From a gamma proteobacterium HdN1 (GTDB lineage: Bacteria; Pseudomonadota; Gammaproteobacteria; Pseudomonadales; Ketobacteraceae): a stretch of DNA of 64,000 nucleotides. The notes under the pieces were generated by a model, which was not told the DNA's origin, searched no databases, and saw only the letters and a list, made by a program, of their open reading frames with translations. Positions 1 to 45,188 of the stretch are shown piece by piece. The number at the start of each line of letters is the position of its first letter. The first letter of the stretch is position 1. The stretch spans positions 2,206,527 through 2,270,526 of the forward strand of contig FP929140.1 in assembly GCA_000198515.1 (NCBI GenBank). Direction: 5' to 3'. The translations under genes were made by a program, and so were the position numbers.

Positions 1-2487
1 ACTCTCTCCGATTGCACAGCCGAGATTGGCCTGTGTGATAACGCCGCTGAAGTCCTTCAGTTCCAGCCGCAGATGATTGGGTGGCGCTTCGATGCTGTTG
101 TCCGGAAGGACCAGGACACCTTGCTCTTCTTCATCAAACACCATATTGGCATTGACATCCACCACTGGTAGAACGCGCAACCCAACTAATGTATAGCGGT
201 CGTCCTCGTCGGCAGCGACAAAGTGATTCACCATATCAGGACCGCCCTCGCGCGGGGCAGGGGCCGATGCACTGCTTCGCGAGATTTGCCGGGTTTGCAG
301 CGGTGCGCCATCAGGCGAGCAAATGGCATTGACGCCGCAATCGGCATCGTTCGGCACCGATCTTAATGTGTAACGATACAGGTCACCAATCCGCCACGGG
401 GTATCTGGGAAAAACTGAACGCGTTGGGGCAGGATATCCAGCCGGCCGGGCACGGGTACCCAATTGTTATCCAGGTCGCGGCGTTCAACGAAGAAGGTGC
501 CGTCGTTGATCGTCACCGGATCTATGCTACGGTTGAAAGTCACTCTGACCGGGTAGTCCTTGTACAGACTATCCACATGGAGCAGGGGGTCGCTGTTCTG
601 GCCGCCCACGCAGCGACCGTTGCGCCAATCAGGCCGTGGCCCGGTAAGCAGTGCGTCTGTAAGCGCACAGGAAAAGCCGGGAAACACGGCGGCGACTGGC
701 GAGCGCAGATTAGCGGCGCTGCCGTCGGGAAGAGACAGGTCTTCAAAGCGAAGTGCCAGTGTCTCATCCTGGCTCAATGGATTGCCCTGCGTATCGCGCA
801 GCAAGCTGGTCAGGACAATTTCGATATCAGTGTTGTGCTGCAGGTTACTGCCGTCGATGATCACCGTTGCGCCGTCGTGGCGCATGGGCGCGAGCTCCTT
901 GGGTACCAGAGTGCCGTCGACACGCATCTCGATGGCGCCGTCAAGGAATACCGAAGCTGCATTCAGGGGTTTATTGAAGTTCAGAATAACAGGGTCCCCG
1001 GGGCGGGCATTGGGTTGAAAGTCTTCCCCGGGCGACCAGGACTGCAGCTCGAGCGGCCGCGTATCGGCTGGTGGTACCGGCGCGTTGCGCTGATCGACAT
1101 AGGATTCCAGACGGAAAGACAGCAGGCCGCTGGCGCGCTCCAAACCGAGAATCTCCGGTTCGACCACGCTGGCGGCATCCATCACCAGTACGCCATTCTC
1201 CACTATCGCGAGGCCCACTACCTGAATATTCAGCAAGTTCTGGCTCAGTGCCGCGTTGGCGATCCCGCCCTCTGCGGTCATGGCTGCGTCCATGTTGAGC
1301 AAGGCATAGCGAGGAGCATCCTTTGCTTTACTGAACGGGTTAGCGATCAGGTAGCCGTTTGCGTCGCTGAGCAGTGTGATCAGCACTTCACCGGTTTCGA
1401 TACCAGCGTTGACTTGACCCAGAATATTGACGGCCACCGGGCTGCCGCGTAGCACTGAACCTGCAGGCACCCGCAGAGGTGCCGCGTTGGCAAAATCCGG
1501 CACGAAACCCAGGTCCGCGGCCAAGTCTCCCTCCAGTCTGGTAAAGGATTCGTTACCCAGCACAAAAGTTTCTACCGGCACCTCATTGACGCGTTGCCCG
1601 GTGAGCCTTGACGCAAGCCCCGGCTGTTGTTCACCAAGCGTGCCTACCTTGAGAACGACCGTTTCTCGCGGTGGTGTGGCCACTGGTGTGAAGGAACGTT
1701 CGAGGAGGGGGAGCTCCTCATCCTCCCGGCTGCGCAGACCAGACAGGACCAAGGTATGTTCCGTCGGTTCGAGGTCATCCCTTGGGTCGAGCACAAGATA
1801 GCGGCCCTGCAGTAGCAGAGTGGCCTCGATCAGGCTGCCCTGCGAATTTTCAAGACGAACCTGATTTCCATAGTTGACGCTAGCCGGATCAAGTACGCGA
1901 TTGAACGCCATTCTCAGGGTGCTCATGTCATTCGGCTGCCTCGCATCGTCAATGTCGGTAAGCAGCGCGGGCTGATCCAGGGGTGTAGCGGCGAGCAGTT
2001 TGAAGTCGCCGTCGCCAATTGCCCCCGCGAAGCCTTTCTGCGCACCGGCAGTGCGAAAGCGAAAGTCGTTGAAGGGGCCTGTGTCAATGCCGTCTAGGCC
2101 CACTTCGCTCAGCTGCAGTTGGTATTCAGTATTCGGCACGAGTTCGTCGACAGGACGTAGCAGCAGGCCACGTCCGTTATCCACCGTTTCGTGGACGAAC
2201 ATGGCAGGGTTGCCGCCCGCTACAGTCACCAATTGCAATCTGTCGTCGATTTCCTCAATGACGGTTTCATTGAGGGGCGCCGAAAAACGAAGCACCATCT
2301 GGGTGCTGGGTGGCACTTCCTGCTGTCCCGGGTAGGGGTAGGCGAAAATAAGACTCTCCGGCGTTGTCCAGGAAGTGTTGATGGTGCCTTTGTCGCCGCC
2401 ACATGCGGACAGCAAGAGGAAACCAGGCAGCAGTACCCAGAGTGCAAGAAGCGTGGATATTGTTCGGTGATTTGTTATTGTTTTCAT
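1..2487 (-). CDS. Large lipoprotein with repeated bacterial Ig-like domains (partial, runs off the window)
   Basis: The minus-strand frame is open from an ATG at 2487 to base 1, at least 829 codons, so the C-terminus is missing. The start has a GGAGAAAA ribosome site just upstream. The N-terminus is a lipoprotein signal peptide: hydrophobic stretch, then LLLSAC with the lipidated Cys at residue 29, followed by GGDKG. The body repeats the pattern 'F(N/S)(R/A)xLDPxTVxxxxFxV', as in SbsA/Big_5-type Ig-like domains of surface-exposed proteins. Many SNP-rich loops and few Lys fit a secreted protein. It lies 48 nt downstream of the FadL-like gene on the same strand and is probably co-transcribed. 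Function unknown; a surface or outer membrane role is inferred. Confidence 0.75.
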   Translation of the reverse strand, partial: MKTITNHRTISTLLALWVLLPGFLLLSACGGDKGTINTSWTTPESLIFAYPYPGQQEVPPSTQMVLRFSAPLNETVIEEIDDRLQLVTVAGGNPAMFVHETVDNGRGLLLRPVDELVPNTEYQLQLSEVGLDGIDTGPFNDFRFRTAGAQKGFAGAIGDGDFKLLAATPLDQPALLTDIDDARQPNDMSTLRMAFNRVLDPASVNYGNQVRLENSQGSLIEATLLLQGRYLVLDPRDDLEPTEHTLVLSGLRSREDEELPLLERSFTPVATPPRETVVLKVGTLGEQQPGLASRLTGQRVNEVPVETFVLGNESFTRLEGDLAADLGFVPDFANAAPLRVPAGSVLRGSPVAVNILGQVNAGIETGEVLITLLSDANGYLIANPFSKAKDAPRYALLNMDAAMTAEGGIANAALSQNLLNIQVVGLAIVENGVLVMDAASVVEPEILGLERASGLLSFRLESYVDQRNAPVPPADTRPLELQSWSPGEDFQPNARPGDPVILNFNKPLNAASVFLDGAIEMRVDGTLVPKELAPMRHDGATVIIDGSNLQHNTDIEIVLTSLLRDTQGNPLSQDETLALRFEDLSLPDGSAANLRSPVAAVFPGFSCALTDALLTGPRPDWRNGRCVGGQNSDPLLHVDSLYKDYPVRVTFNRSIDPVTINDGTFFVERRDLDNNWVPVPGRLDILPQRVQFFPDTPWRIGDLYRYTLRSVPNDADCGVNAICSPDGAPLQTRQISRSSASAPAPREGGPDMVNHFVAADEDDRYTLVGLRVLPVVDVNANMVFDEEEQGVLVLPDNSIEAPPNHLRLELKDFSGVITQANLGCAIGES

Positions 2488-20198: not shown

Positions 20199-20205
20199 CA
20201 GCAGT

Positions 20206-20361
20206 GGAAGTGTTGCTACGGGCAACAGCTCGGAAGTGTTGCTACGGGCAACAGCTCGGAAGTGTTGCTACGGGCAACAGCTCGGAAGTGTTGCTACGGG
20301 CAACAGCTCGGAAGTGTTGCTACGGGCAACAGCTCGGAAGTGTTGCTACGGGCAACAGCAT
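20206..20361 (+). repeat. Six tandem 26-bp repeats, each with a small hairpin
   Basis: Units start at 20206, 20232, 20258, 20284, 20310 and 20336. Each begins GGAAGTG and contains GTTGC-TACGG-GCAAC (5-bp stem, 5-base loop) and ends CAGCTC. Copies are identical except the last, which ends CAGCAT. They fill the gap between the replication protein and the TIGR03761 gene. Iteron, incompatibility, parS-like site or transcription-slowing array are all possible. Not CRISPR, as there are no spacers. Confidence 0.9.
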
Positions 20362-20465
20362 AAAAGCATCCACTCAATTTTTTGGCAATTAGATTGCCTT
20401 GCATCACGGCCTACGGACACAATCACTTCGCCCGTTATACAAACCTACCTAATAGGAAGCCACGC

Positions 20466-22769: not shown

Positions 22770-22962
22770 TTGACAAAAATTTAGGGGCGGTTATCCTGAT
22801 TTTGCACAAACACGGCGTTATGCCGACCCTTTATGAAGACTTGCGCCTGCGATCTTCAGTTGTTTTGTAAAAAACAACGGCCCAATTTCAACCTACCTAC
22901 CGCCTGCGGAAAACACTTCCGCAGGGGATGTGTTTTTCCAGGCATCGTTCTGGAGAAACATC
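22770..22962 (+). promoter_or_regulatory. Leader RNA element 1 (promoter, hairpin, pseudoknot, RBS hairpins) before the DUF3577 gene
   Basis: Promoter TTGACA (22770) - 16 - TATCCT (22792). Hairpin A CGGC/GCCG at 22813-22825, then CCCTTTA. Pseudoknot stem TGAAGA (22834) / TCTTCA (22853) with loop CTTGCGCCTGCGA, hairpin GTTGTTTT/AAAACAAC, and GGC (22879) pairing with GCC of the loop. Then H1 CCTGCGGAA-AACAC-TTCCGCAGG (22903-22925) and H2, where ATGTGTTTTTCCAG (22928) pairs with CTGGAGAAACAT (22950), hiding the GGAG ribosome site. Confidence 0.72.
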
Positions 22963-23655
22963 ATGTCCAAATTTGAAGCAAAAGCGTACAACCTCCACAC
23001 CACCGGCGTGGGTTTCATTAACCGTTTGCGGTTTGTGAAACCGTCAGGCAAAGGCAAAGGTTACTTTGCCGTGGCCATCGGCGCCTTATATGGCGTCGAA
23101 AATGACGAAGGGCGTGCTGAAAGCTCGCTCTACGATCTACGGGTCGTAGGTGCGAAGGCGATCGAAGCGGTAAAAACGCTTCAGGCTGCCTTCGACGATA
23201 ATCAAAAGATTTTCGTTGAGTTTAAGGCGGGCGACACGCGCGCCGAAGCGTTTCAGTACAAGCGTGGCAAGCGTGAAGGCGAGTGGGGGGCCTGCATCAA
23301 GGGCAGCCTGCTGCAAGTTCGAAAAGCTTGGATCAATGGCAAACTTGTCATTGATCACAGCTCATCGGATGTTTCAGTGGAAACGCTGGGACAACCTCCA
23401 GCGCCACAAGAACTGGCGCAGCAAGAGGAGTACCCTGCAGCAAGTGTGGGTACGGTTTCCGAACCTGCGCACGCAATGCCTGTACCGTCGTGGAGAGTTC
23501 GTTTAGCGGAGCGTCCTGAACGCATCGTGCTGCTGAAAAATGACCCAGAGTTGGATCTGAAGCTCTGGGAAATTGACTGTACGGGCACATACGTTCGCAC
23601 TTGGTGTAGCCAAGAGGGACGACTCTTGTTTGTTCGTGATGCGAAACGCGCTTGA
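22963..23655 (+). CDS. DUF3577 / STY4534-family element replication protein (SSB-like)
   Basis: 230 residues from ATG 22963. N-terminus FEAKAYNLHTTGVGFINRLRFVKPSGKGKGYFAVAIGALYG and ELRVV-like strands resemble the OB-fold STY4534/DUF3577 proteins that take the single-stranded-DNA-binding slot in SPI-7-like elements. A Pro/Gln/Ala linker (about 145-175) and a C-terminal domain (WRVRLAERPERIVLLKND) follow. Likely acts in element DNA replication or transfer. It has the most complete RNA leader of the window. Confidence 0.78.
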   Translation: MSKFEAKAYNLHTTGVGFINRLRFVKPSGKGKGYFAVAIGALYGVENDEGRAESSLYDLRVVGAKAIEAVKTLQAAFDDNQKIFVEFKAGDTRAEAFQYKRGKREGEWGACIKGSLLQVRKAWINGKLVIDHSSSDVSVETLGQPPAPQELAQQEEYPAASVGTVSEPAHAMPVPSWRVRLAERPERIVLLKNDPELDLKLWEIDCTGTYVRTWCSQEGRLLFVRDAKRA

Positions 23656-23660
23656 TATGG

Positions 23661-23741
23661 TATAGTCGTGCAATCTGACGTGGTATGACCACCCAGTTCG
23701 CGCGACTTGAGCCTGCAATCGCGCCTCTTGTTCTCAAGAGG
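23661..23741 (+). promoter_or_regulatory. Leader RNA element 2: promoter, hairpin and pseudoknot
   Basis: Extended -10 TGGTATAGT (TATAGT at 23661). Hairpin A GTGGT-ATG-ACCAC (23680-23692). Pseudoknot: GCGCGA (23700) pairs with TCGCGC (23719), loop CTTGAGCCTGCAA; hairpin CTCTTG-TTCT-CAAGAG; then GGCTC (23740) pairs with GAGCC of the loop. Same layout as the leaders at 22770, 26780 and 28132, with different but matching stem bases. Confidence 0.7.
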
Positions 23742-24189
23742 GCTCATTGCCTTCGGTATTAGGCCATCGCCGCGACTGGCTTGATCTATGCCGCTAGGTG
23801 TACATTTCTCTATGTTTGCCGTAAACAGCGATCTTCGGATGGCTGTTTACGGATTCCAACATAGACGAACCGCTGGCAAATCCGCCCACCACAGGCGGCT
23901 GCGCCAACTTGAAATCCGGTCACTGGCCCAGACGATCACTGATCCAATCGTTTTCGGGATTGACGGATTTGCCAGCGGTTTGCGCTGAAATGAACCCACT
24001 TATCGCTTCCGTGGGCGATTGTTAAATACGCGGGCCTTTTGTGCGGGAAACCGTGCACGGCTATCGGTGATCCGGCGCTGTTTAAGATCACGATCGGAAA
24101 AAAGAATCTGCACCACTCTCTATCCGTTATGCGCCATTTGCAACATCCCCGCCCCTTTCAGGGGCGGGCATCCTTCCGGATTTTTTGTG
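23742..24189 (+). ncRNA. Highly structured untranslated region
   Basis: Downstream of leader 2 and without a credible gene. CTATGTT..CCGTAAACAG (23811) pairs with CTGTTTACGG..AACATAG (to 23863) around a TTCG tip. AACCGCTGGCAAATCCG (23868) has a perfect 17-bp partner CGGATTTGCCAGCGGTT (23963-23980), closing a domain of about 110 nt with inner hairpins. Further on, CCCGCCCCT-TTC-AGGGGCGGG (24148-24168) stands just before the 24190 start. Could be a long 5' untranslated region or a separate small RNA; no known family recognised. Confidence 0.55.
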
Positions 24190-24970: not shown

Positions 24971-25126
24971 TCAAGATTGCGGGTGCGCGTGCTTTTCAGC
25001 CTCGCGTTTTTCAATCAAATACTGCTCGTACTCTTTTTCGAGCAGGCAATGTTGACGCCAAGCAAAGAGAGTAGCGCAAACGATCGTCGTCGTTCCTGCA
25101 ATCAAATAGGCAGTAAATAAATCCAT
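24971..25126 (-). CDS. 51-residue single-pass membrane protein (paralogue 1)
   Basis: MDLFTAYLIAGTTTIVCATLF, then AWRQHCLLEKEYEQYLIEK and REAEKHAHPQS. One N-terminal transmembrane helix and a charged helical cytoplasmic-type tail. GGAGGACTTGCG stands before the ATG. Two near-identical paralogues are at 25196 and 26049, and the tail AWRQxCxLEKxYEQYLIEK is conserved in all. Too short for ordinary gene calling. Function unknown; part of a two-gene membrane cassette that is repeated in this element. Confidence 0.75.
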   Translation of the reverse strand: MDLFTAYLIAGTTTIVCATLFAWRQHCLLEKEYEQYLIEKREAEKHAHPQS

Positions 25127-25150
25127 CGCAAGTCCTCCGTAGAGATAATA

Positions 25151-25170
25151 AAAGGAGCCGAAGCTCCTTT
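25151..25170 (-). terminator. Terminator between small membrane genes
   Basis: On the minus strand AAAGGAGC-TTCG-GCTCCTTT, a stem closed by a TTCG tetraloop and ending in T residues, after the 25196 gene. Same core as the terminator at 26003. Confidence 0.75.
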
Positions 25171-25195
25171 TATGTCGATCAACGCTAATTGATTA

Positions 25196-25351
25196 TCAAG
25201 ATTGCTGCTGCGCGTGCTTCTCAGCCTCGCGTTTTTCAATCAAGTACTGCTCGTATTTCTTCTCAAGAATGCAGTTTTGACGCCACGCGATGACAATAGC
25301 GCAACCAATCGTGATGACTCCAGTAAGCAAATAGGCAGTAAAGAAATCCAT
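25196..25351 (-). CDS. 51-residue single-pass membrane protein (paralogue 2)
   Basis: MDFFTAYLLTGVITIGCAIVI, then AWRQNCILEKKYEQYLIEK, REAEKHAQQQS. One transmembrane helix plus charged tail; GGAGGG upstream of the ATG. It follows the 95-residue membrane protein at 25401-25688 by 49 nt, so both should come from the leader at 25689-25897. Function unknown. Confidence 0.78.
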   Translation of the reverse strand: MDFFTAYLLTGVITIGCAIVIAWRQNCILEKKYEQYLIEKREAEKHAQQQS

Positions 25352-25400
25352 AAAGAACCCTCCGCAGAGTTTAAATAAAGTGTACACAAAAAATGGGCAT

Positions 25401-25688
25401 CTAGCCATCCGCTTTCGGGGGCAATGCAGTCTTGTTTCGCTCGAAGCTTTCAAGGTGTGCTGTCGCCGTGGCCTTGATCCATGCGAGGGGCAGCCAAAGT
25501 GCAAACCCTACGAGCATGACGCCCAGTTGGGCGTACAGGCTTGTACAGGACGTCACCAGCGCCTTAGAAAAGTACAGGTACGCACCTCCGCTGGTGGTGC
25601 AAAAACCGAGCAATACTCGCTCGATGTTTTTGATAACCAGTTGATTCCTGCGATACTCGACCCACAGTGTTTGCTCTAAATCAGGCAT
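25401..25688 (-). CDS. 95-residue two-helix membrane protein (paralogue A)
   Basis: N-terminal WVEYRRNQLVIKNIERVLL amphipathic segment, a first hydrophobic stretch (about 27-50), a second (LYAQLGVMLVGFALWLPLAW), then IKATATAHLESFERNK. Its paralogue at 26256-26537 is nearly identical at both ends but different in the membrane core, as if the core diversifies. AAGGAGGCG precedes the ATG and is paired in the leader. Function unknown. Confidence 0.75.
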   Translation of the reverse strand: MPDLEQTLWVEYRRNQLVIKNIERVLLGFCTTSGGAYLYFSKALVTSCTSLYAQLGVMLVGFALWLPLAWIKATATAHLESFERNKTALPPKADG

Positions 25689-25897
25689 TACGCCTCCTTG
25701 TTTTTCGTTGACAAAAAACTGGAAGCGAGCAGATCCCCGGAAGGTGCTCCCTTCCAGGGTGGTTGACTAAAAAATGAACCGCCGCACGCTTGCGCGGGGC
25801 CTCGCATTGAAGGTTCAGGTGCGAGCTAACGGGTCTGCAAGACAGTGCAGTGCTGTTTTACGGCCATCAGGGTACGGAACTCTGGCGCAGCTCGCAA
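25689..25897 (-). promoter_or_regulatory. Leader RNA element 3 (minus strand)
   Basis: Read on the minus strand: promoter TTGCGA (25897-25892), 17-base spacer, TACCCT (25874-25869); hairpin A CTGCA-CTGTCT-TGCAG (25850-25835); pseudoknot CTCGCA/TGCGAG (25825-25801) whose loop TGAACC pairs with GGTTCA (25780-25775) across a GC-rich hairpin; H1 GGAAGG-GAGCA-CCTTCC (25755-25739); H2 CGCTTCC paired with the ribosome site GGAGGCG (25697-25691). Confidence 0.72.
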
Positions 25898-26002
25898 GCG
25901 TTATGCTACGGATTTGGCTAGGTTCTCACGTCGAGTCCAGTGTGGCTCGGGTGCCATGTCACCATGCGGATTTGCTAACTTTGTCGGGCAAAGAAAACAA
26001 AT

Positions 26003-26029
26003 AAAAAAAGGAGCCGAAGCTCCTTTTTT
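26003..26029 (-). terminator. Terminator after the 52-residue membrane gene
   Basis: On the minus strand AAAAAAGGAGC-TTCG-GCTCC followed by seven T. A TTCG tetraloop makes it strong. Confidence 0.85.
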
Positions 26030-26048
26030 GTCGATCAATGCTGATTGG

Positions 26049-26207
26049 CTATCGAGGTTGTTGCTGCGCGTGCTTCTCAGCCTCTCGCTTTTCAATCAAA
26101 TACTGCTCGTACTTCTTCTCAAGAATGCAGTTTTGACGCCAAGCGATAATAAGGCCACCGCCAACAACGATCATGCCGGAAAGCATAATTGCAGTAATAG
26201 GATCCAT
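26049..26207 (-). CDS. 52-residue single-pass membrane protein (paralogue 3)
   Basis: MDPITAIMLSGMIVVGGGLII, then AWRQNCILEKKYEQYLIEK, REAEKHAQQQPR. CGGAGGACTTGCT before the ATG. The membrane helix differs from the paralogues at 24971 and 25196 while the tail is identical, so selection acts differently on the two halves. Downstream partner of the 26256-26537 gene. Confidence 0.78.
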   Translation of the reverse strand: MDPITAIMLSGMIVVGGGLIIAWRQNCILEKKYEQYLIEKREAEKHAQQQPR

Positions 26208-26255
26208 AGCAAGTCCTCCGTAGAGATAAAGAAAGTGTACACAAAAAATGGGCTT

Positions 26256-26537
26256 CTAGCCATCCGCATTTGGGGGCGATGCCGCCTTGTTTCGCTCGAA
26301 GCTTTCAAGGTGTGCTGTCGCCGTGGCCTTGATCCATGCGAGGGGCAGCCAAAACAAAAACACTCCAAACATGATGCTCACTTGGACGTGCCAATCGGTA
26401 CAGGACGTAACCCACTCTTTTGAGAAAGAAAAATATACGCTGCTTCCTGACAGACTGAGCAATACTCGCTCGATGTTTTTGATGACCAGTTGATTCCTGC
26501 GATACTCGACCCACAGTTTGTGCTCTAAATCAGGCAT
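26256..26537 (-). CDS. 93-residue two-helix membrane protein (paralogue B)
   Basis: Shares WVEYRRNQLVIKNIERVLL and LPLAWIKATATAHLESFERNK with the protein at 25401-25688. The part between (SLSGSSVYFSFSKEWVTSC... VSIMFGVFLFW) is different. Followed 48 nt later by the 52-residue protein. The whole leader-gene-gene-terminator unit is a tandem duplicate of the neighbouring one. Confidence 0.75.
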   Translation of the reverse strand: MPDLEHKLWVEYRRNQLVIKNIERVLLSLSGSSVYFSFSKEWVTSCTDWHVQVSIMFGVFLFWLPLAWIKATATAHLESFERNKAASPPNADG

Positions 26538-26745
26538 TACGCCTCCTTGTTTTTCGTTGACAAAAAACTGGAAGCGAGCAGATCCCCGGAAGGTGCTCCC
26601 TTCCAGGGTGGTTGACTAAAAATGAACCGCCGCACGCTTACGCTGGGCCTCGCATTGAAGGTTCAGGTGCGAGCTAACGGGTCTGCAAGACAGTGCAGTG
26701 CTGTTTTACGGCCATCAGAGTACGGAACTCTGGCGCAGCTCGCAA
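26538..26745 (-). promoter_or_regulatory. Leader RNA element 4 (minus strand)
   Basis: Almost identical to element 3: TTGCGA (26745-26740), 17 bases, TACTCT (26722-26717); hairpin A with CTGTCT loop; pseudoknot CTCGCA/TGCGAG with TGAACC/GGTTCA (26623-26628); H1 and RBS hairpin up to 26539. It stands back to back with the plus-strand promoter at 26780. Confidence 0.72.
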
Positions 26746-26779: not shown

Positions 26780-26978
26780 TTGAAACCAAATGGATAGCGG
26801 TATATCTTCGATTACGAAAACAGCGCTGCACTGTCTTGCAGTCCCTTTTCACCGCACTTAAACCTGCAATGCGGTCGATCCTTTGGATCGGGTTTGCTTT
26901 ATCACTTCACCCACCGGGAGAACACTTCTCCCCGATGGGTAGCAGGGTTTCTCCCATTTTTTTATTTAGGAGAACCCT
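26780..26978 (+). promoter_or_regulatory. Leader RNA element 5 (plus strand)
   Basis: Promoter TTGAAA (26780), 17 bases, TATCTT (26803). Hairpin A CTGCA-CTGTCT-TGCAG (26826-26841), CCCTTT, pseudoknot ACCGCA (26851)/TGCGGT (26870) with loop AAACC pairing GGTTT (26891) across CGATCC-TTT-GGATCG. H1 CGGGAGAA-CAC-TTCTCCCCG (26915-26934). H2 AGGGTTTCTCC (26944) pairs with GGAGAACCCT (26969), enclosing the ribosome site. Confidence 0.75.
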
Positions 26979-27227
26979 ATGTCTAACGCAATCAGCGTGT
27001 TTGTAAGCCTGTATCGGAAAATCGGTGCCGGAAATTCGTGGCGGATCATGCTCGTCGATTACGAGCATGTAGATACCACTTTCCTTAAGGTCGAAGCCGT
27101 CGTTGAGCGCCTTAGCTCAATTGGCGACCTTCTTGAGGAGCTCCTGCCCAACGATGGAGACTTCTTTACGGTGGTCGAACATGAGCTTGGCAGCCATGGC
27201 CGATGCACTGACAGGATACCGGCGTAA
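26979..27227 (+). CDS. Hypothetical 82-residue protein
   Basis: MSNAISVFVSLYRKIGAGNSW, a soluble acidic protein with a helical VVERLSSIGDLLEELLP segment. It starts right after an RBS-sequestering hairpin and is the first gene of the plus-strand unit with the two-helix and 40-residue membrane proteins. I do not recognise the family. Confidence 0.6.
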   Translation: MSNAISVFVSLYRKIGAGNSWRIMLVDYEHVDTTFLKVEAVVERLSSIGDLLEELLPNDGDFFTVVEHELGSHGRCTDRIPA

Positions 27228-27248
27228 CCTTTCAATCTTTCAATCCTG

Positions 27249-27310
27249 CCCCAAGGGAATCACCCCTTGGGGTGTTTTCCATGGGGCATTTTCAGCTCAT
27301 GGAGAACATA
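27249..27310 (+). promoter_or_regulatory. Tandem hairpins covering the ribosome site of the 27311 gene
   Basis: H1 CCCCAAGGG/CCCTTGGGG (27249-27272). H2 TGTTTTCCATG (27273) pairs over 11 bp, one wobble, with CATGGAGAACA (27298-27308). No pseudoknot element here because it is internal to the unit. Confidence 0.65.
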
Positions 27311-27583
27311 ATGACTAATCTAAATTTCGCGCAAAAGAAGCTAGGGATGCTTCAGGCGTCACTCGCCAAAACCCAAATCTGGGTGTGGTACACTCGTATC
27401 GTGATGGGGGCACTGGCGGCAAGGCTTGCGACTGACTGGCAAACGTGGGAATTATCCACGGTCTTGGCAAGTATTCCTGCCATCTTGGTTCTGGCCGCTT
27501 TTCATTTGCATTTTGCAGGCAGGGTAGCGCTTCTCAAAAATGAGATCCATTTCTTGGCGGGCCAGATCGAATCTGGCCCCTGA
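27311..27583 (+). CDS. 90-residue two-helix membrane protein
   Basis: N-terminal helix KKLGMLQASLAKTQIWVWY, TM1 RIVMGALAARLA, linker TDWQTWEL, TM2 VLASIPAILVLAAFHLHF, then AGRVALLKNEIHFLAG. The end resembles that of the 27844 protein (HLDLAVRVAILRN), so they are probably homologous. Same architecture and size as the minus-strand membrane proteins, with different sequence. GGAG is buried in the upstream hairpin. Confidence 0.68.
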   Translation: MTNLNFAQKKLGMLQASLAKTQIWVWYTRIVMGALAARLATDWQTWELSTVLASIPAILVLAAFHLHFAGRVALLKNEIHFLAGQIESGP

Positions 27584-27641
27584 TGGAATGGGTGCCGCTC
27601 ACCGTTAAAAACCCTAAATGCCATCTGGAGCTCGACAACCG

Positions 27642-27764
27642 ATGATAGATACTGTGTACATCCTTTCCTTTTTAGGATGGGTACTTGTTATTTACTGCTA
27701 TTTCGCTGAAAAGGCGGAAAAAAAAGCGTTTGCACTGCTTTTGGAGCAGGAAAAATCTGAATAG
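27642..27764 (+). CDS. 40-residue single-pass membrane protein
   Basis: MIDTVYILSFLGWVLVIYCYF, then AEKAEKKAFALLLEQEKSE: one membrane helix and a charged tail, as in the small partners at 24971, 25196, 26049, 42003, 42837 and 43612. CTGGAG precedes the start at 13 nt. Not homologous in an obvious way, but same size, topology and position after a two-helix protein. Confidence 0.6.
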   Translation: MIDTVYILSFLGWVLVIYCYFAEKAEKKAFALLLEQEKSE

Positions 27765-27843
27765 CCGTATCGTTATCCGCTTAAACAGTCCTGCACGCGT
27801 ATCGTGTGCAGGCTCTGTTGTGGCAAACGGAGCATAACCGCAC

Positions 27844-28083
27844 ATGATTGCCGAGCCCTCTTCCCATTCGCAACAAACGGCCCTACGAAAAAACCTTCGT
27901 TGGCTCTGGGTATGCCGAGTGCTGCTAGCGGTAGCGGTCGCAAGCCTTCTCCTGACCCATTCTTGGCAACCGCTGCCTGCCGTCATCGTCGTATCCTTGA
28001 TATTGCTGCTGGCAAAAATCCACTTGGATCTGGCCGTCCGAGTAGCGATACTCCGGAATCACTGCTCGCTTCCGACCCACTGA
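27844..28083 (+). CDS. 79-residue two-helix membrane protein
   Basis: Basic RKNLRWLWVCR, TM1 VLLAVAVASLLL, linker THSWQPLP, TM2 AVIVVSLILLLAKIHLDL, then AVRVAILRNH. Homologous ending with the 27311 protein. The start follows GCTCTG...CGGAGC (27808-27836), which hides GGAG. Function unknown. Confidence 0.62.
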   Translation: MIAEPSSHSQQTALRKNLRWLWVCRVLLAVAVASLLLTHSWQPLPAVIVVSLILLLAKIHLDLAVRVAILRNHCSLPTH

Positions 28084-28131: not shown

Positions 28132-28328
28132 TTGACCGTTTCACGAGAACCTCGCTATAGTGGCGAGGTTAACAGCACTGCACTGTCTTGCAGGCCCTTT
28201 AACCCGTACCTAAACCTGCAATGCGGGCGATCCTTGTGATCGGGTTTATTTTTTAATCAACCACCACCTGCTGGGAGAACCTCTCCCAATTGGGGGCGTG
28301 TTTCTCTGGCACTCACTGGAGAAACACA
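28132..28328 (+). promoter_or_regulatory. Leader RNA element 6 before the RadC-like gene
   Basis: Promoter TTGACC (28132), 18 bases, TATAGT (28156). Hairpin A CTGCA-CTGTCT-TGCAG (28178-28193), CCCTTTA, pseudoknot CCCGTA (28203)/TGCGGG (28222), loop TAAACC (28211) with GGTTTA (28243) across CGATC..GATCG. H1 TGGGAGA/TCTCCCA (28272-28288). H2 GTGTTTCTC (28298) pairs perfectly with GAGAAACAC (28319-28327). Confidence 0.77.
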
Positions 28329-28373
28329 ATGACTCGTTTTTTTAACCTCGAAACAATGTGGGGGGCGCCATGA
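28329..28373 (+). CDS. 14-codon leader peptide coupled to the RadC-like gene
   Basis: ATG at 28329 right after the RBS hairpin reads MTRFFNLETMWGAP and stops at TGA 28371-28373, overlapping the next ATG (28370) as ATGA. The only good ribosome site belongs to this mini-ORF, so the RadC-like protein is probably made by translational coupling. Confidence 0.5.
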   Translation: MTRFFNLETMWGAP

Positions 28374-28885
28374 ACGCACTCACCATGAACCAAGAGCTGA
28401 TCTGGGCGGCGGCAAATGATGTGCTTGACCTAGATTCGCTGAGTGAGCATCAAGAATCGGTGCTCGTGGATGTAGCCTGCCTGCTGCTTACGCGGCGTTT
28501 TAAGCAACAGCCGACCTTAATTGAATCACCTTCAGCCGCAACACGCTTAGCAAAAACGTGGCTGGGGCTTGAGCCCAATGAGGTGTTTGGCGTGATCTAT
28601 CTCGATGCGGGCCATTGCGTGATTGAGATGGTCAAGCATTTTCATGGGACGGTAGACTCCTCCCATGTTCACGCGCGTCCCATCATGCAAAAGGCGTTAG
28701 AGATTAACGCAGTTGCAGTGATTTTTTGCCACAACCATCCCTCGGGGAGAGCTGAACCCAGCGCATCTGACAAGGCGATCACAAATCACCTAATTACGGT
28801 GCTCAAGTACGTCGATGTGCGCGTGCTGGATCATCTCGTTGTCGGTGAAACGGTCGCCTCAATGGCCGGTCTTGGCATGATGTAG
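28370..28885 (+). CDS. radC: RadC-like JAB/MPN-domain protein
   Basis: 171 residues. JAMM metal motif: Glu in FGVIYLDAGHCVIE region, SSHVHARPIMQKALEINAVAVIFCHNHPSGRAEPSASD with HxH-type HNHPSG...SxxD. Full-length RadC is about 220 residues; this one has a short N-terminal helix instead of the HhH part, as usual for mobile-element copies. Exact role unresolved in the family; commonly next to anti-restriction or replication genes on mobile DNA. Confidence 0.88.
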   Translation: MNALTMNQELIWAAANDVLDLDSLSEHQESVLVDVACLLLTRRFKQQPTLIESPSAATRLAKTWLGLEPNEVFGVIYLDAGHCVIEMVKHFHGTVDSSHVHARPIMQKALEINAVAVIFCHNHPSGRAEPSASDKAITNHLITVLKYVDVRVLDHLVVGETVASMAGLGMM

Positions 28886-41061: not shown

Positions 41062-41275
41062 GCTGCGTTTCCTCTTGCTTAAAAAAGTGAGATGAAACTT
41101 GCGAGACAGCACCGCCCATGCGGGGATGTGATCCCGCAAGGGTGTAGTTGAGTGAAAAACGAACCTGGCCACGCGGCCAGCCACATCACAGGTTCAGGTG
41201 TGGCTTAAAGGGTGTTGCCAGACAGGGCAACGCTGTTTGCAGAGTAAGCGTATCGGTATTGGCTTTGGAGTTCAA
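41062..41275 (-). promoter_or_regulatory. Leader RNA element 7 before the helicase
   Basis: Minus strand: TTGAAC (41275-41270), 17 bases, TACGCT (41252-41247); hairpin A GTTGCC-CTGTCT-GGCAAC; CCCTTTA; pseudoknot GCCACA/TGTGGC with GAACC pairing GGTTC (41165-41161) across TGGCC-GCGT-GGCCA; H1 CCCTTGCGGG/CCCGCATGGG (41152-41119); a weaker hairpin TGCTG...CAGCA reaches the start codon. Confidence 0.7.
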
Positions 41276-41315: not shown

Positions 41316-41351
41316 AAAAAAAGCGCCAAACCTTTACGGTGGCGCTTTTTT
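41316..41351 (-). terminator. Terminator of the 41384-41908 unit
   Basis: AGCGCC ... GGCGCT flanked by A and T runs. Near-identical copies at 42736 and 43562 end the sister cassettes. Confidence 0.8.
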
Positions 41352-41383
41352 CTTAAATCAGCGATCTAAAAAGCGAGAACGTA

Positions 41384-41908
41384 CTACTCATTTGCCACTG
41401 ACACAGCTTGTTTGAGCTGCCTAAACGACATACGGTGCATAGTCTCTGTCCTTGCGTTCATCACGACCCATCCACGCGCCCCCAAGGGGTGGCGGTGAAT
41501 CAGCCTGTAAGTTTCTCCAGCAAAATGCCAAAACTGACCCGCCTGATACGCTGGGCGAGCTTTGTTGTCGGCATGAAATTTCCGCACCTCAGCCCGCCAT
41601 TTCTCGGCATACGCATTTAAAGGTGCGCTTGCTTCATCAAGCAGGGAAAGCGGGCAATCCAATTGGTACGGATAAACCGTCTCATCTAGGTACTTATATC
41701 CCCATTGGGTGGGTTTTCCTCGCTGTCGATAGGCTTCAATCATTGTGAGACTGATATATGAGCATCCAGCGGGGTTTCTGATAAGTTGCCACACGTTGTT
41801 GCCAACATACCGAGTGGCGCGTACCTCATGATCGACCAAATCTGCACCGATTCGATCTAAATAGCCAATGATCTCGCTGCGAGAGTTCCAGCCGAAAAGC
41901 CATCCCAT
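41384..41908 (-). CDS. DUF6927-like element protein
   Basis: 174 residues. MGWLFGWNSRSEIIGYLDRI, SYISLTMIEAYRQRGKP and WHFAGETYRLIHRHPLGARGWVVMNARTETMHRMSF are the features of a small soluble family seen in plasmids and conjugative elements (DUF6927, from memory). The RBS is inside a perfect 12-bp hairpin (41907-41949). Third gene of its unit after two membrane proteins. Function unknown. Confidence 0.55.
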   Translation of the reverse strand: MGWLFGWNSRSEIIGYLDRIGADLVDHEVRATRYVGNNVWQLIRNPAGCSYISLTMIEAYRQRGKPTQWGYKYLDETVYPYQLDCPLSLLDEASAPLNAYAEKWRAEVRKFHADNKARPAYQAGQFWHFAGETYRLIHRHPLGARGWVVMNARTETMHRMSFRQLKQAVSVANE

Positions 41909-41980
41909 GTGTTTCTCCTCGAATCAAAGTAAATGCGGGAGAAACACATCCCCACTGGGAGAGTATTTCTCCCAGTGGGG
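41907..41980 (-). promoter_or_regulatory. Tandem hairpins before the DUF6927-like gene
   Basis: H1 CCCCACTGGGAGA-AATAC-TCTCCCAGTGGGG (41980-41950), 13 bp. H2 ATGTGTTTCTCC (41949) pairs perfectly with GGAGAAACACAT (41918-41907), trapping both the ribosome site and the first two bases of the start codon. Confidence 0.72.
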
Positions 41981-42002
41981 TTAAAAAGCTAAAAATCAGG
42001 AA

Positions 42003-42122
42003 TTAAAAATCTTGGTCGTCTTCCGACAGATTTTCAAAGAATCTCTTGGTCTGCCAGTCATCCCAAAAACCGTAAGCAAGAACTGCCACGCAAATGATGG
42101 TTGCGAGATAAACGTTTTCCAT
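42003..42122 (-). CDS. 39-residue single-pass membrane protein (cassette 6)
   Basis: MENVYLATIICVAVLAYGF, then WDDWQTKRFFENLSEDDQDF. Membrane helix diverged, tail nearly identical to the paralogues at 42837 and 43612. Second gene of its cassette. Function unknown. Confidence 0.75.
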   Translation of the reverse strand: MENVYLATIICVAVLAYGFWDDWQTKRFFENLSEDDQDF

Positions 42123-42173
42123 ATCTGTGATCTCAATGTGAGTGCATTGTTGAGTATATCAAGAAGCCGGAGT

Positions 42174-42485
42174 TCAATGCGCGTCTTGGCACCTCGCCTC
42201 GTCTTTATGGTTGGCTACCCGTGAAGCAATTATCTTGGCTAAGTGTTTGTAATAACAAACCCTGCTCACCAAATAAAGCTTCCCAATAACTAAAACCACA
42301 AACACCCAAAGCGTCTGCCAACTTCGATTGCCGCTGATAAAATCCCAAGTTGTGCAGCCAGCAGGTAGAGCACCAAATAGCGTTACGGCGCGATCAAGAA
42401 AGACATACTGCTCTACCTTGGTCGCCACATAGCATTCAGCGCGCTCCAGCCAGCTAAGGCGGAGGCGCTTGTGAAGGTCTTTCAA
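42174..42485 (-). CDS. 103-residue two-helix membrane protein (cassette 6)
   Basis: TTG start at 42485 placed directly after the leader's GGAGAAACACG. KDLHKRLRLSWLERAECYVATKVEQYVFLDRAV, then TM-like TLFGALPAGCTTW and WQTLWVFVVLVIGKLYLV, ending with a basic helix YYKHLAKIIASRVA. The first 40 residues are almost identical to the 43019-43318 paralogue; the membrane part diverges. Confidence 0.7.
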   Translation of the reverse strand: MKDLHKRLRLSWLERAECYVATKVEQYVFLDRAVTLFGALPAGCTTWDFISGNRSWQTLWVFVVLVIGKLYLVSRVCYYKHLAKIIASRVANHKDEARCQDAH

Positions 42486-42486
42486 C

Positions 42487-42695
42487 GTGTTTCTCCTTTT
42501 GTTTGACACAAAAAAAGGGAGAAACACAACCCCACTGGGAGAGTATTTCTCCCAGTGGGGTTAAAAACAAAAAAACGAACCTGGCCGCGCGGCCAGCCAC
42601 ATCACAGGTTCAGGTGTGGCTTAATTAAAGGGTGTTGCCAGACAGGGCAACGCTGTTTGCAGGGTAAGCGTATCGGTATTGGCTTTGGAGTTCAA
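42487..42695 (-). promoter_or_regulatory. Leader RNA element 8 (cassette 6)
   Basis: Minus strand: TTGAAC (42695-42690), 17 bases, TACGCT (42672-42667), hairpin A GTTGCC/GGCAAC (42651-42634), a 4-base insertion, pseudoknot GCCACA/TGTGGC with GAACC/GGTTC (to 42577), H1 CCCACTGGGAGA... (42560-42530), H2 GTGTTTCTCC/GGAGAAACAC (42527-42487). Confidence 0.74.
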
Positions 42696-42735
42696 TGCCT
42701 TGGAGAGTATCGGCCTCTCGGCCTGCGTCGGACAC

Positions 42736-42769
42736 AAAAAAAGCGCCAGACCTTTACGGTGGCGCTTTC
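42736..42769 (-). terminator. Terminator of cassette 5
   Basis: AGCGCC...GGCGCT with A and T tracts, sister of 41316 and 43562. A leftover half of an H1-like hairpin lies at 42785-42815. Confidence 0.75.
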
Positions 42770-42836
42770 TGATCAACGGAAGCCCCACAGGGAGAGTATT
42801 TCTCTCAGTGGGGTTAAAAAACAAAAAAATCAGAAC

Positions 42837-42959
42837 TTAAAAATCTTCGTCGTCTTCCGACAACTTTTCAAAGAATCTCTTGGTCTGCCAGTCATCCCAA
42901 AAGATCTTAAGAAAGCCTGCAATACAAACTATGATGGTAACTTTGTATATGTCATCCAT
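42837..42959 (-). CDS. 40-residue single-pass membrane protein (cassette 5)
   Basis: MDDIYKVTIIVCIAGFLKIF, then WDDWQTKRFFEKLSEDDEDF. One helix and an acidic tail conserved with the copies at 42003 and 43612. Confidence 0.75.
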   Translation of the reverse strand: MDDIYKVTIIVCIAGFLKIFWDDWQTKRFFEKLSEDDEDF

Positions 42960-43018
42960 ATCGTGCACCTCAACGTAAGCACATTACTGATTATAACAAA
43001 CTGCGAGAACAACTGCTT

Positions 43019-43318
43019 TTATTGCTTGGCATTCCTCTCATCGGCCAGTCGTAACGTAATCGCTTTCAAACGATGCTTGTAGAAGCTTACCTTCCATAGA
43101 AACGCAAGCTTTAAGGCAACCCAACCCGCAAAAATCCAAAGAACTTGCAAGCTCACGCTGCCATTAAGAAAATAATCCCACACCGATCGTCCTGCTGGGA
43201 GCGTGCCAAATGCCGTTATGGCGCGGTCAAGAAAGACATACTGGTCTACCTTGGTCGCCACATAGCATTCAGCGCGCTCCAGCCAGCTAAGACGAAGGCG
43301 CTCATGAAGGTCTTTCAA
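43019..43318 (-). CDS. 99-residue two-helix membrane protein (cassette 5)
   Basis: TTG start at 43318 just after the leader's GGAGAAACACG. KDLHERLRLSWLERAECYVATKVDQYVFLDRAITAFGTLPAG, TM around SLQVLWIFAGWVALKLAFL, ending YKHRLKAITLRLADERNAKQ. Paralogue of 42174-42485. Confidence 0.7.
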   Translation of the reverse strand: MKDLHERLRLSWLERAECYVATKVDQYVFLDRAITAFGTLPAGRSVWDYFLNGSVSLQVLWIFAGWVALKLAFLWKVSFYKHRLKAITLRLADERNAKQ

Positions 43319-43319
43319 C

Positions 43320-43521
43320 GTGTTTCTCCTTTTGTTTGACACAAAAAAGGGAGAAACACACCCCACTGGGAGAGTATTTCTCCCAGTGGGGTTAAAAACA
43401 AAAAACGAACCTAGCCACGCGGCCAGCCACATCACAGGTTCAGGTGTGGCTTAAAGGGTGTTGCCAGACAGGGCAACGCTGTTTGCAGGGTAAGCGTATC
43501 GGTATTGGCTTTGGAGTTCAA
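43320..43521 (-). promoter_or_regulatory. Leader RNA element 9 (cassette 5)
   Basis: Minus strand: TTGAAC (43521-43516), 17 bases, TACGCT (43498-43493), hairpin A GTTGCC-CTGTCT-GGCAAC (43477-43460), pseudoknot GCCACA/TGTGGC (43450-43426) with GAACC/GGTTC (to 43407), inner hairpin here TGGCC/GGCTA keeps pairing by a G-U; H1 (43391-43361) and H2 GTGTTTCTCC/GGAGAAACAC (43359-43320). Confidence 0.75.
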
Positions 43522-43561
43522 TGCCTTGAAGAGCATTGGCCTCTCGGCCTGCGTCGGACAC

Positions 43562-43597
43562 AAAAAAAGCGCCAGACCTTTACGGTGGCGCTTTTTT
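43562..43597 (-). terminator. Terminator of cassette 4
   Basis: AAAAAGCGCC...GGCGCTTTTT, downstream of the 40-residue gene ending at 43612. Confidence 0.82.
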
Positions 43598-43611
43598 CTT
43601 AAATCAGCGTT

Positions 43612-43734
43612 CTAAAAATCCTGATCGTCATCCGACAGCTTCTCAAAGAATCTCTTGGTCTGCCAGTCATCCCAAAGAATCTTAAGAAAGACTGAAATGC
43701 AAACTAAAATGGTAATTTTGTAGATGTCGTCCAT
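43612..43734 (-). CDS. 40-residue single-pass membrane protein (cassette 4, leaderless remnant)
   Basis: MDDIYKITILVCISVFLKIL, then WDDWQTKRFFEKLSDDDQDF. Its expected two-helix partner and leader upstream have been replaced by the resolvase gene; only the last bases of that partner remain (about 43795-43830). Confidence 0.75.
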   Translation of the reverse strand: MDDIYKITILVCISVFLKILWDDWQTKRFFEKLSDDDQDF

Positions 43735-43765: not shown

Positions 43766-44386
43766 TTATAACAAACCGCTAGAATAACCGCTTTTATTGC
43801 TTGGCATCCCTCTCGTTGGCCTCTCAGCCTGACCCACCCTCAAATACTGATAAAGCGTCTCCCGACTGATGCCAAACTCGCGGGCCAGTGCTGTTTTTTG
43901 CTCACCGTTCGCCAAGCGCTGCAAAAGCGTCGAGGCCTGCGCAGCATCCAGCGATTTTTTCCTTCCTTTATAGGCGCCACGTTGCTTGGCCAGCGCAATT
44001 CCCTCGCGCTGACGTTCCCGAATCAGCGCTCGTTCAAACTCGGCAAAAGCACCCATGACCGAAAGCATCAGATTCGCCATGGGCGAGTCTTCACCGGTGA
44101 AGGCCAAGTGCTCTTTGACGAATTCAACCCGTATTCCACGTTGGGTAAAACCGTGAACAAGATGGCGCAGGTCATCAAGGTTGCGCGCAAGGCGATCCAT
44201 GCTGTGCACGACTACCGTATCCCCTTCGCGCACAAATTCTTGAAGCGCATTGAGCTGGGGGCGATGGGTGTCTTTGCCGGATGCCTTGTCGGTAAACACA
44301 CGATCGACCAAAGCGCCCTCCAATTGCCGCTCTGGATTCTGGTCGAAGCTGCTGACGCGGATATAGCCGATGCGATGACCTTTCAA
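43766..44386 (-). CDS. Serine resolvase/invertase
   Basis: 206 residues. GYIRVSSFDQNPERQLEG with catalytic Ser about residue 12, then DKASGKDTHRPQLNALQEFVREGDTVVVHSMDRLARNLDDLRHLV, ERALIRERQREGIALAKQRGAYKGRKKSL and HTH ALAREFGISRETLYQYL. This is the TnpR/ParA-resolvase type. The last 15 or so residues (PTRGMPSNKSGYSSGLL) come from fused foreign DNA: the bases match the 3' end of the 43019-43318 membrane gene in another frame. Confidence 0.92.
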   Translation of the reverse strand: MKGHRIGYIRVSSFDQNPERQLEGALVDRVFTDKASGKDTHRPQLNALQEFVREGDTVVVHSMDRLARNLDDLRHLVHGFTQRGIRVEFVKEHLAFTGEDSPMANLMLSVMGAFAEFERALIRERQREGIALAKQRGAYKGRKKSLDAAQASTLLQRLANGEQKTALAREFGISRETLYQYLRVGQAERPTRGMPSNKSGYSSGLL

Positions 44387-44634: not shown

Positions 44635-44907
44635 ATGGCAACATCACTCAAGATTGACGATGTGCTGAAAGGCCGCGTCCAACACCTCGCCGGCCAGCGC
44701 CGCCGCTCGCCACATTGGATCATGCTCGAAGCTATCCAGCAATACGTCGAGCGCGAGGAAGCCCGCGAGAGCTTCAAACAGGAAGCCTTAGCCTCTTGGA
44801 CGGCCTATCAGGAAACCGGACGGCACCTGACCGGCCAAGAAGTGCGCACCTGGTTGAACACTTGGGGCACCGAAGACGAAAAGGCGGTGCCTGAGTGCCA
44901 CAGGTAA
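44635..44907 (+). CDS. RHH (CopG/ParD-like) antitoxin
   Basis: 90 residues. MATSLKIDDVLKGRVQHLAGQRRRSPHWIMLEAIQQYVEREEARE is a ribbon-helix-helix domain; the C-terminal half (SFKQEALASWTAYQETGRHLTGQEVRTWLNTWG) would wrap the toxin. It overlaps the toxin gene by 13 bases. Confidence 0.87.
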   Translation: MATSLKIDDVLKGRVQHLAGQRRRSPHWIMLEAIQQYVEREEARESFKQEALASWTAYQETGRHLTGQEVRTWLNTWGTEDEKAVPECHR

Positions 44908-45188
44908 TCGTCACCGAAGGCGCGGCGGAAGGCTTGGAGCGATGCCGACGCTTCCTCGCTGTCAAGGCCCCGGATGCCGCCAGACGAGCAGGTCAGGCCA
45001 TCGAGCGGCAATTCCTACTGCTGGAAACAACCCCCGACATTGGCCGTCCGTTCCCTGAAATACCGGAGCTTCGCGAATTGGTGATTGCCTTCGGAGATTC
45101 CGGCTATGTAGCTCTGTACCGCCACGAACCGGCCGTCGATGCGGTCTATGTCTTGGCATTTCGGCACCAGAAAGAGGCGGGATACTGA
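44895..45188 (+). CDS. RelE/ParE-type toxin
   Basis: 97 residues, GTG start. PQVIVTEGAAEGLERCRRFLAVKAPDAARRAGQAIERQF, then GRPFPEIPELRELVIAFGDSGYVALYRHEPAVDAVYVLAFRHQKEAGY, the alpha-alpha-beta fold with Arg and Tyr-Arg residues of ParE/RelE toxins. Predicted to inhibit gyrase or cleave mRNA. Its stop overlaps the next ATG (TGATG). Confidence 0.85.
   Translation: MPQVIVTEGAAEGLERCRRFLAVKAPDAARRAGQAIERQFLLLETTPDIGRPFPEIPELRELVIAFGDSGYVALYRHEPAVDAVYVLAFRHQKEAGY

Follow-up and report, generated by a model that had tools for sequence, protein, structure and literature searches.

Membrane-protein cassettes behind a structured leader RNA in a duplicated integrative and conjugative element of gamma proteobacterium HdN1

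Repeat units at 41.3–43.8 kb

The window analysed here is a stretch of 64,000 nucleotides (nt) from the gamma proteobacterium HdN1 (contig FP929140.1, positions 2,206,527 to 2,270,526), taken from a complete, single-contig genome of 4.59 Mb (G000). From approximately 15.5 kb on, the window is covered by an integrative and conjugative element (ICE), within which three repeat units follow one another on the minus strand between 43.8 and 41.3 kb (the B group; Table 1). A complete cassette consists of a promoter, a structured leader of about 95 nt, a gene for a helical membrane protein of 99–103 amino acids (aa) and a gene for a single-helix peptide of 39–40 aa. A preliminary description of this region had recognized three cassettes, one of them broken, of leader, large gene, small gene and terminator. 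The repeats, the leaders, the large and small open reading frames (ORFs) and the hairpins are indeed present, but the broken copy at 43734 has neither leader nor large gene. Moreover, the unit at 42695–41316 is not a two-gene cassette: it holds three genes, with a 174-aa DUF6927-like ORF between the b1 gene and the terminator-like hairpin. This ORF matches Pfam DUF6927 at an E-value of 0.0099, short of the Pfam cut-off, and PHROG 21047 with an E-value of 9e-10. The middle cassette carries no such gene; a degenerate version of the hairpin preceding that gene is all that it has there, and a terminator-like hairpin follows.

The promoter upstream of the middle-cassette leader reads TTGAAC-17-TACGCT. 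The sequence AAAGGAGAAACACG precedes the TTG starts of both large ORFs, and the start site of B2 lies inside a hairpin of 11 pairs, a length equalled in 1 of 200 shuffles. Two strong successive hairpins stand before B1, B2 and the DUF6927-like gene (41908–42570 and 43318–43400, minus strand), the second of which covers the ribosome site; the arms GGGAGAAA/TTTCTCC occur in both and could exchange partners. The terminator-like hairpins were first read by eye and are supported by folding against 200 shuffles each. A pattern scan did not list those of the B group because loops longer than 8 are outside its limits. The tail WDDWQTKRFFE is identical in all three small proteins (b1, b2 and b3), just as had been described. 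The broken unit begins to resemble the middle unit at 43821 (repeat D5), a point within the final codons of the large gene that was lost; the last codons of the abutting resolvase ORF read through this remnant.

Table 1. Coordinates of the cassettes, leaders and neighbouring features in the window (R1, model built from the window leaders)
Feature	Position	Strand	Evidence or remark
Leader, middle cassette	43395..43490	minus	R1 match 107.2 bits (R1 training sequence)
B2, 99-aa two-helix membrane protein (predicted), TTG start	43019..43318	minus	dN/dS 0.23 against B1
b2, 40-aa single-helix peptide	42837..42959	minus	WDDWQTKRFFE tail
Degenerate copy of the hairpin that precedes the DUF6927-like gene	42782..42815	minus	by eye; repeat D7
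Terminator-like hairpin, middle cassette	42735..42770	minus	0 of 200 shuffles fold as well
Leader, third cassette	42565..42664	minus	R1 match 102 bits (training sequence); promoter present
B1, 103-aa two-helix membrane protein (predicted), TTG start	42174..42485	minus	AlphaFold2 pLDDT 68.4
b1, 39-aa single-helix peptide	42003..42122	minus	
DUF6927-like 174-aa protein, third gene of third cassette	41384..41908	minus	Pfam, PHROG
Terminator-like hairpin, third cassette	41317..41354	minus	0 of 200 shuffles fold as well
b3, 40-aa single-helix peptide of broken cassette	43612..43734	minus	
Terminator-like hairpin, broken cassette	43563..43600	minus	0 of 200 shuffles fold as well
25-kb group (A)	24971..26712	minus	leaders, two large genes, three peptides
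25-kb group, leaders	26712-26613; 25864-25764	minus	
25-kb group, large genes	26537-26256; 25688-25401	minus	
25-kb group, peptides	26207-26049; 25351-25196; 25126-24971	minus	
25-kb group, terminator-like hairpin	26040-26001	minus	
Third group (C)	26812..28083	plus	leader, ORFs, peptide
Group C, leader	26812-26907	plus	
Group C, ORF	26979-27227	plus	
C1	27311-27583	plus	
Peptide c1	27642-27764	plus	
C2	27844-28083	plus	
Leader before helicase gene	41149..41244	minus	R1 109 bits (training sequence)
SNF2/ResIII-type helicase gene	41061-38986	minus	SNF2-rel_dom 1.3e-11
Leader before radC (~28370-28885)	28164..28259	plus	R1 101.4 bits (training sequence); Pfam RadC 5.4e-35
Probable diverged leader before DUF3577 (~22963-23655)	22802..22895	plus	R1 E 0.003, outside training set
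Probable diverged leader	23666..23757	plus	R1 E 0.0028, outside training set; sequence-free descriptor agrees
Serine resolvase ORF abutting broken cassette	43766..44386	minus	Pfam Resolvase 5.6e-37
Group II intron	36595-38950	minus	two Rfam matches
Reverse-transcriptase-like ORF between the two intron matches	38386-36677	minus	
26-bp direct-repeat array, nearly perfect	20180-20385		unit GGAAGTGTTGCTACGGGCAACAGCTC

A structured leader before cassettes and other genes

Seven leaders in the window stand before cassettes, the helicase gene and radC, and the model R1 built from them scores these same seven at 88–109 bits. Because it also precedes the helicase gene and radC, the leader is no marker of the cassettes. 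Its predicted structure consists of three hairpins, with loop 2 pairing with the strand behind hairpin 3 to form a pseudoknot or an alternative helix. In an alignment of 13 leaders, 17 of 26 pairs are changed on both sides and none of 500 shuffles reaches any of five measures of covariation; the alignment was fitted to hairpins 1–3 of R1 and the counts thus lean towards the model. Loop 2 and the 3' strand, whose pairing had no part in fitting the model, can pair in 96.2% of cells; a short ACAG–CUGU pairing at the 5' end holds in 87.2%, and hairpin 3 in 78.5%.

A promoter of the form TTGnnn-16..18-TAnnnT, with its -10 box ending 8–16 nt upstream of the leader, is found at 10 of the 13 leaders compared with 97 of 20,000 random positions, by a criterion fixed after promoters upstream of leaders had been inspected. 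The probable leader at 23666 has no promoter by this criterion. From the promoter position, the leader RNA is probably located at the 5' end of the mRNA. Downstream, 8 of 19 gene starts, those of B1, B2 and the DUF6927-like gene among them, have a hairpin over the ribosome site that exceeds in length those of 95% of shuffles. At least two of these 19 positions (those of DUF3577 and of one gene in genome G004) are off by a few bases.

Leaders of the same layout occur in other genomes. G004, from the same family, has leaders before genes unlike the cassettes, and a cytosine methylase gene follows a leader fragment there. A leader-pattern search of genome contigs returned three stretches, two of them unsupported by R1, while no leader pattern was found in viral contigs and no leader DNA in plasmids. 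A sequence-free descriptor of four helices, run on both strands of 24 sources, found 24 sites in 454,068 bases and 1 in an equal number of shuffled bases (the shuffles keep base content in 300-base blocks only); it failed to find 3 of the 9 leaders in the window and 2 of the 4 at locus L025. By eye, 19 of the 24 sites look like the same element and five appear chance-like (one each in L065 and L089, three in L090). A further model, R3, built from nine descriptor sites in five loci, has 31 matches at E ≤ 0.01 in 7 of 20 genomes, 19 of which were chosen for carrying DUF3577, the other being G004. All but two of these places (29 of 31, training sites counted) fall in the five genomes that supplied training sites; the remaining two genomes have one place each, with E-values of 0.006–0.007.

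At 30 loci, the first or second ORFs behind the leader include genes for DUF3577, RadC, ResIII/SNF2-type helicase, DUF932 and DUF3275 proteins, as well as a CCDC90-like coiled-coil protein with a transmembrane (TM) segment (Pfam below cut-off) and a TM peptide of 27 aa, one example of each type having been checked against Pfam. An ORF at L119 that had been taken for a methylase has no Pfam match. Further small-protein cargo was seen at L080 2400–2665 (G268), where a hydrophobic peptide of 27 aa and then a highly acidic peptide of 26 aa follow a leader. With the same leader before a helicase, radC and further genes in the window, and similar leaders before DUF3577, RadC, DUF932, DUF3275 and more in other ICEs, leader and terminator are no sign of a dedicated two-gene system; they are generic dressing of the genes of the ICE.

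The Rfam model of the radC RNA (RF01754) has no match in the whole window at gathering score, nor in three leader-holding stretches at E ≤ 1 or 5. At gathering score it matches 1 of 20 DUF3577 loci (L065), and it matches twice in a Pseudomonas veronii record (L089). The five best matches of model R2, built from window and G004 leaders, in 22 DUF3577 loci are all sites of the descriptor layout, with weak E-values of 0.0098–0.1. Applied to the window and L025, R3 gave three matches, two of them true leaders with weak E-values of 0.027 and 0.075. Its one match in L089 overlaps one of the two radC RNA matches (E 0.024), and it misses the radC RNA match of L065.

The membrane-protein pair and its genomic setting

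Whole-gene ratios of nonsynonymous to synonymous substitution (dN/dS) range from 0.11 to 0.43 and are below 1 in all eight paralogue pairs of the A and B groups, accompanied by conserved peptide tails. The cassette proteins are thus under purifying selection and are more than chance ORFs. Divergence between copies is greatest in and near the membrane parts and smallest in the N-terminal or tail parts. Positive selection on the hypervariable middle of the large genes was considered and rejected, as dN/dS is below 1 over every whole pair and synonymous sites in that region of B1–B2 are saturated; among all segments computed, the single one above 1 (b1–b3, 1.86) rests on one synonymous change. 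Leaders and 5' ends of the copies agree in stretches at 95–98% identity, and synonymous sites are saturated in the later part of B1–B2. We read this pattern as pointing to an older duplication whose 5' parts were probably homogenised later.

The two groups had been described as unrelated sequence families, and between the large proteins of A and B no similarity was detected: A1 and B1, the one pair compared, give no BLASTP alignment at E ≤ 100, and in four A–B comparisons 57–144 of 500 layout-keeping shuffles score equally high. A third two-helix/one-helix group, C, lies on the plus strand at 27311–28083. Its two helical proteins C1 and C2, which flank the 40-aa single-helix peptide c1, are similar to each other (z 5.9). 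Common descent of the large proteins of A, B and C was otherwise unsupported. The comparison of B1 with C1 (5 of 500 shuffles as high) is not repeated by B2 with C1 (135 of 500). Structure prediction had been suggested as a check on the two groups. Single-sequence AlphaFold2 models place helices at residues 3–39 and 48–85 in A1 (mean pLDDT 66.9) and at 2–38, 46–51 and 53–102 in B1 (mean pLDDT 68.4). The models suggest two long helices in each protein with similar breakpoints, which is a likeness of layout at low confidence rather than proof of a shared fold; the arrangement of promoter and leader is common to both groups. A Foldseek search with the B1 model found nothing, the best E-value being 4.5.

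We also found a two-helix/one-helix pair in other elements. At locus L067, a two-helix ORF of 63 aa and a single-helix peptide of 37 aa follow a leader just before DUF3577. Counting its own site, the 63-aa protein is matched at seven places, spread over 5 of 144 genomes, and two pairs of these loci are near-identical. At all seven, a single-TM peptide of 31–37 aa with RQ and a charged tail starts at most 6 nt from the end of the 63-aa-type gene. A leader lies directly upstream of the pair at four of the seven, one of which (L121) is the L067 site and belongs to the R3 training set. A profile was made from six such peptides, one near-identical pair among them and none taken from the window. Among 1409 window frames it puts a2 at the top and a1 next (E 0.0019 and 0.0027). 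The peptide b1 is third (E 0.72, not significant), a3 fifth (E 1.3), c1 70th, and b2 and b3 109th and 133rd (E 70 and 81); with an iterated profile b1 is 6th (E 1.1). One of 60 column-permuted profiles puts at least four cassette peptides in the top five, and none reaches an E-value of 0.0019. The peptides of the 25-kb group therefore probably belong with those of other ICEs, judging from this sequence profile, and the peptides of the 41–44 kb group are not significantly matched by it. The earlier view that the two small-protein families are unrelated may not hold wholly, in view of the top two places of the 25-kb peptides and the third, not significant, of b1; b2 and b3 rank far lower. The argument that one architecture in two families matters likewise survives in part. 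Pair order repeats in group C and in other ICEs, and the large/small membrane pair recurs in other elements, but leader and terminator are not peculiar to it.

Homologues of the pair proteins were sought more widely. B1 has no homologue in plasmids, and in 369 genomes of the class it matches its own genome and two sequences with internal stops, which we judged to be chance. A1, in 145 relatives, matches its own genome and 15 others at E-values of 0.005–0.09, many with stops and likewise judged chance. Neither protein has a homologue in viral contigs. The peptide b2 matches four plasmid records at E-values of 3–6, also judged chance, and the 63-aa (G365) and 62-aa (G228) pair proteins match no plasmid. 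Pfam, NCBIfam, PADLOC and PHROGs give no confident family for the pair proteins, the large protein of the 25-kb group being represented by its A1 copy only.

The ICE is marked by DUF3577 (Pfam E 5.6e-43), RadC (5.4e-35), DUF3275 (7.9e-78) and TraG_N (7.6e-28) proteins, and the TraG_N gene adjoins the cassette region. A second, inverted copy lies at G000:C1 ~4242384–4290882 and is 99.8–100% identical, in the part compared, to window 15476–64000, so that the duplicated stretch is at least 48.5 kb. As this part of the ICE occurs twice in the chromosome, each cassette is present twice per cell. Between the TraG_N gene and the resolvase, two small overlapping ORFs (44635–45188, plus strand) resemble a toxin–antitoxin pair. 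A sequence resembling the group II intron of the window adjoins the helicase gene in G004.

Proposed role and comparison with known systems

The cassettes hold up as real, yet they do not make up a new system of their own. We think it reasonably likely that each is a transcription unit within a gene set that extends across the ICE, and their leader-coordinated membrane pair would act in establishment or maintenance of the element. Each complete unit would carry its own sigma70-type promoter, and its mRNA would start with the 95-nt RNA of three hairpins, loop 2 pairing behind hairpin 3; at some genes, B1 and B2 included, an additional hairpin would cover the ribosome site. The leader RNA may control transcription or translation. 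Most probably it would keep a scattered set of genes (DUF3577, radC, helicase, DNA methylase and small membrane proteins) low while the ICE is integrated, and these genes would rise jointly once the ICE has been excised, transferred or newly arrived. The pair would most probably form a small inner-membrane complex that serves establishment or maintenance; its larger member is predicted to have two long helices and a membrane segment, and the smaller is a single-TM peptide whose tail is charged. The copies suggest an origin by tandem duplication, followed by homogenisation of leader and 5' ends and by gene loss.

Several observations weigh against this proposal. The function suggested for the pair has no homologue of known function behind it. 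Hydropathy indicates one strong membrane segment in the large proteins of A and B, and their two-helix layout rests on pLDDT values of 67–68. The ribosome-site hairpin is not beyond shuffles at 11 of the 19 starts, among them both large genes of the 25-kb group, the helicase and radC. A simple terminator model of the leader is possible in the window, but was rejected because leaders outside the window do not conserve the U-run that follows, and simple termination is therefore not general. Among 145 relatives, R1 matches in one other genome, G004 (four matches on one contig), and in 369 genomes of the class, where few candidates were scored, it found no other leader genome. R3 reaches 2 of the 13 window and G004 leaders, and those weakly; at genome scale it finds none of the leaders of G004, so the branches of the leader lie far apart.

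More specific roles can be considered for the pair. In one, it confers exclusion or immunity: sitting in the inner membrane, the pairs would keep out redundant copies of the element and of its relatives, and several diverged pairs would widen the range. The pairs lie in an ICE beside its TraG_N gene, and it is the membrane parts and their surroundings in which the copies have diverged furthest. There is also a precedent in PAPI-1, an island of a related type that is reported to exclude a second copy by a mechanism its authors left open (PMC5297154). However, no homology to known exclusion proteins was found in Pfam, NCBIfam, PADLOC or PHROGs (searched with A1 for the large protein of the 25-kb group), the divergence took place under purifying rather than diversifying selection, and two near-identical ICE copies share the cell, although copying within the cell would evade exclusion. 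We consider this role unlikely as it stands. By analogy, exclusion nevertheless seems the most attractive specific role, and that of a toxin with its antidote about equally likely.

In the toxin–antidote alternative, the hydrophobic peptide would be a membrane toxin restrained by the larger protein or by the leader RNA, and the ICE would be stabilised. Such an arrangement would suit the several copies of small hydrophobic peptides and the hairpins that hide the ribosome sites of two large genes. The leader, however, also drives the helicase and radC; the solitary peptides a3 and b3 persist without a large gene, which is unexpected if each needs its own antidote; and no match to a toxin family was found in PADLOC or elsewhere. 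We regard this alternative as unlikely, too. It is improbable, in our estimate, that one ancient pseudoknot RNA class, with the radC RNA as a branch, serves throughout this class of ICEs as the common on-switch of establishment genes, and that the two-helix/one-helix pair, found in several sequence families behind that switch, is the exclusion factor of the element, turned on once it has entered a new cell.

A different possibility is that the leader acts not as RNA but as a folded single-stranded-DNA promoter of the Frpo type, read on entry into a new cell. Frpo promoters drive genes of the leading-region type in plasmids (PMC11541004), which the gene mix behind the leaders (methylase, helicase, radC-like) resembles. 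However, the covarying structure starts after an ordinary promoter, and in DNA folds of seven leaders the -35 and -10 boxes are not consistently more paired than the surrounding 60 nt (non-template pairing of 0.31–0.77 in the boxes and 0.37–0.59 around them; the exception is c26700, with 0.77 and 0.56). We find this explanation very improbable. The small ORFs might instead be carried along with a repeated regulatory sequence, in decay or without a function, as the lack of an annotated family, the lack of homologues of the large proteins outside their own genome in the searches made and the gene loss in two of three B-group units would suggest; this is very improbable given dN/dS of 0.11–0.43 with conserved tails and a pair order that recurs in other genomes.

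A broader RNA class of one layout, located where the mRNAs of many ICE genes probably begin, would offer a testable handle on how scattered genes are coordinated. Exclusion, which has been reported for at least one island without a known gene (PMC5297154), is an example of the functions for which the recurring membrane pair is a candidate.

Inner-membrane entry-exclusion proteins (PMC5297154) resemble the pair in being small, inner-membrane proteins, as the pair is predicted to be, and in residing on a conjugative element; no homology to them was found. Frpo/ssi promoters (PMC11541004) are, like the leader, repeated structured elements before early-type genes, whereas the structure of the leader lies downstream of an ordinary promoter and its boxes are not consistently inside the fold. 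The G365-type pair, an unnamed family, shares the gene order, the one- and two-helix proteins and, at four of seven loci, the leader directly upstream. Its genes are -5 to +6 nt apart, however, rather than the approximately 50–60 nt of the window pairs, and its large partner has no similarity to A, B or C, none of which is found by its profile.

The radC RNA is listed in a table by Weinberg et al. 2010 (PMC2864571), and RF01754 is named in a 2020 paper among families whose structure can be improved; we found no functional study of it in the literature searched. The leader is shorter (95 rather than 149 nt), its loop and pairing sequences differ, and the 3' domain of the radC RNA model is not seen in it. 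The two share the order hairpin 1–CCC–hairpin 2–hairpin 3. In the printed consensus of the radC RNA, GAUC in loop 2 can pair with UGAUC behind hairpin 3, as in the leaders, which is our reading of that consensus and is absent from the structure line of Rfam. Both lie upstream of ICE genes, DUF3577 among them. RadC, helicase and DUF3577 genes stand behind the window leaders, and the radC RNA is described as lying upstream of radC and other DNA-related genes. The leader thus falls outside the Rfam model while sharing layout and genomic place with the radC RNA, and it looks like a distant version of this known RNA.

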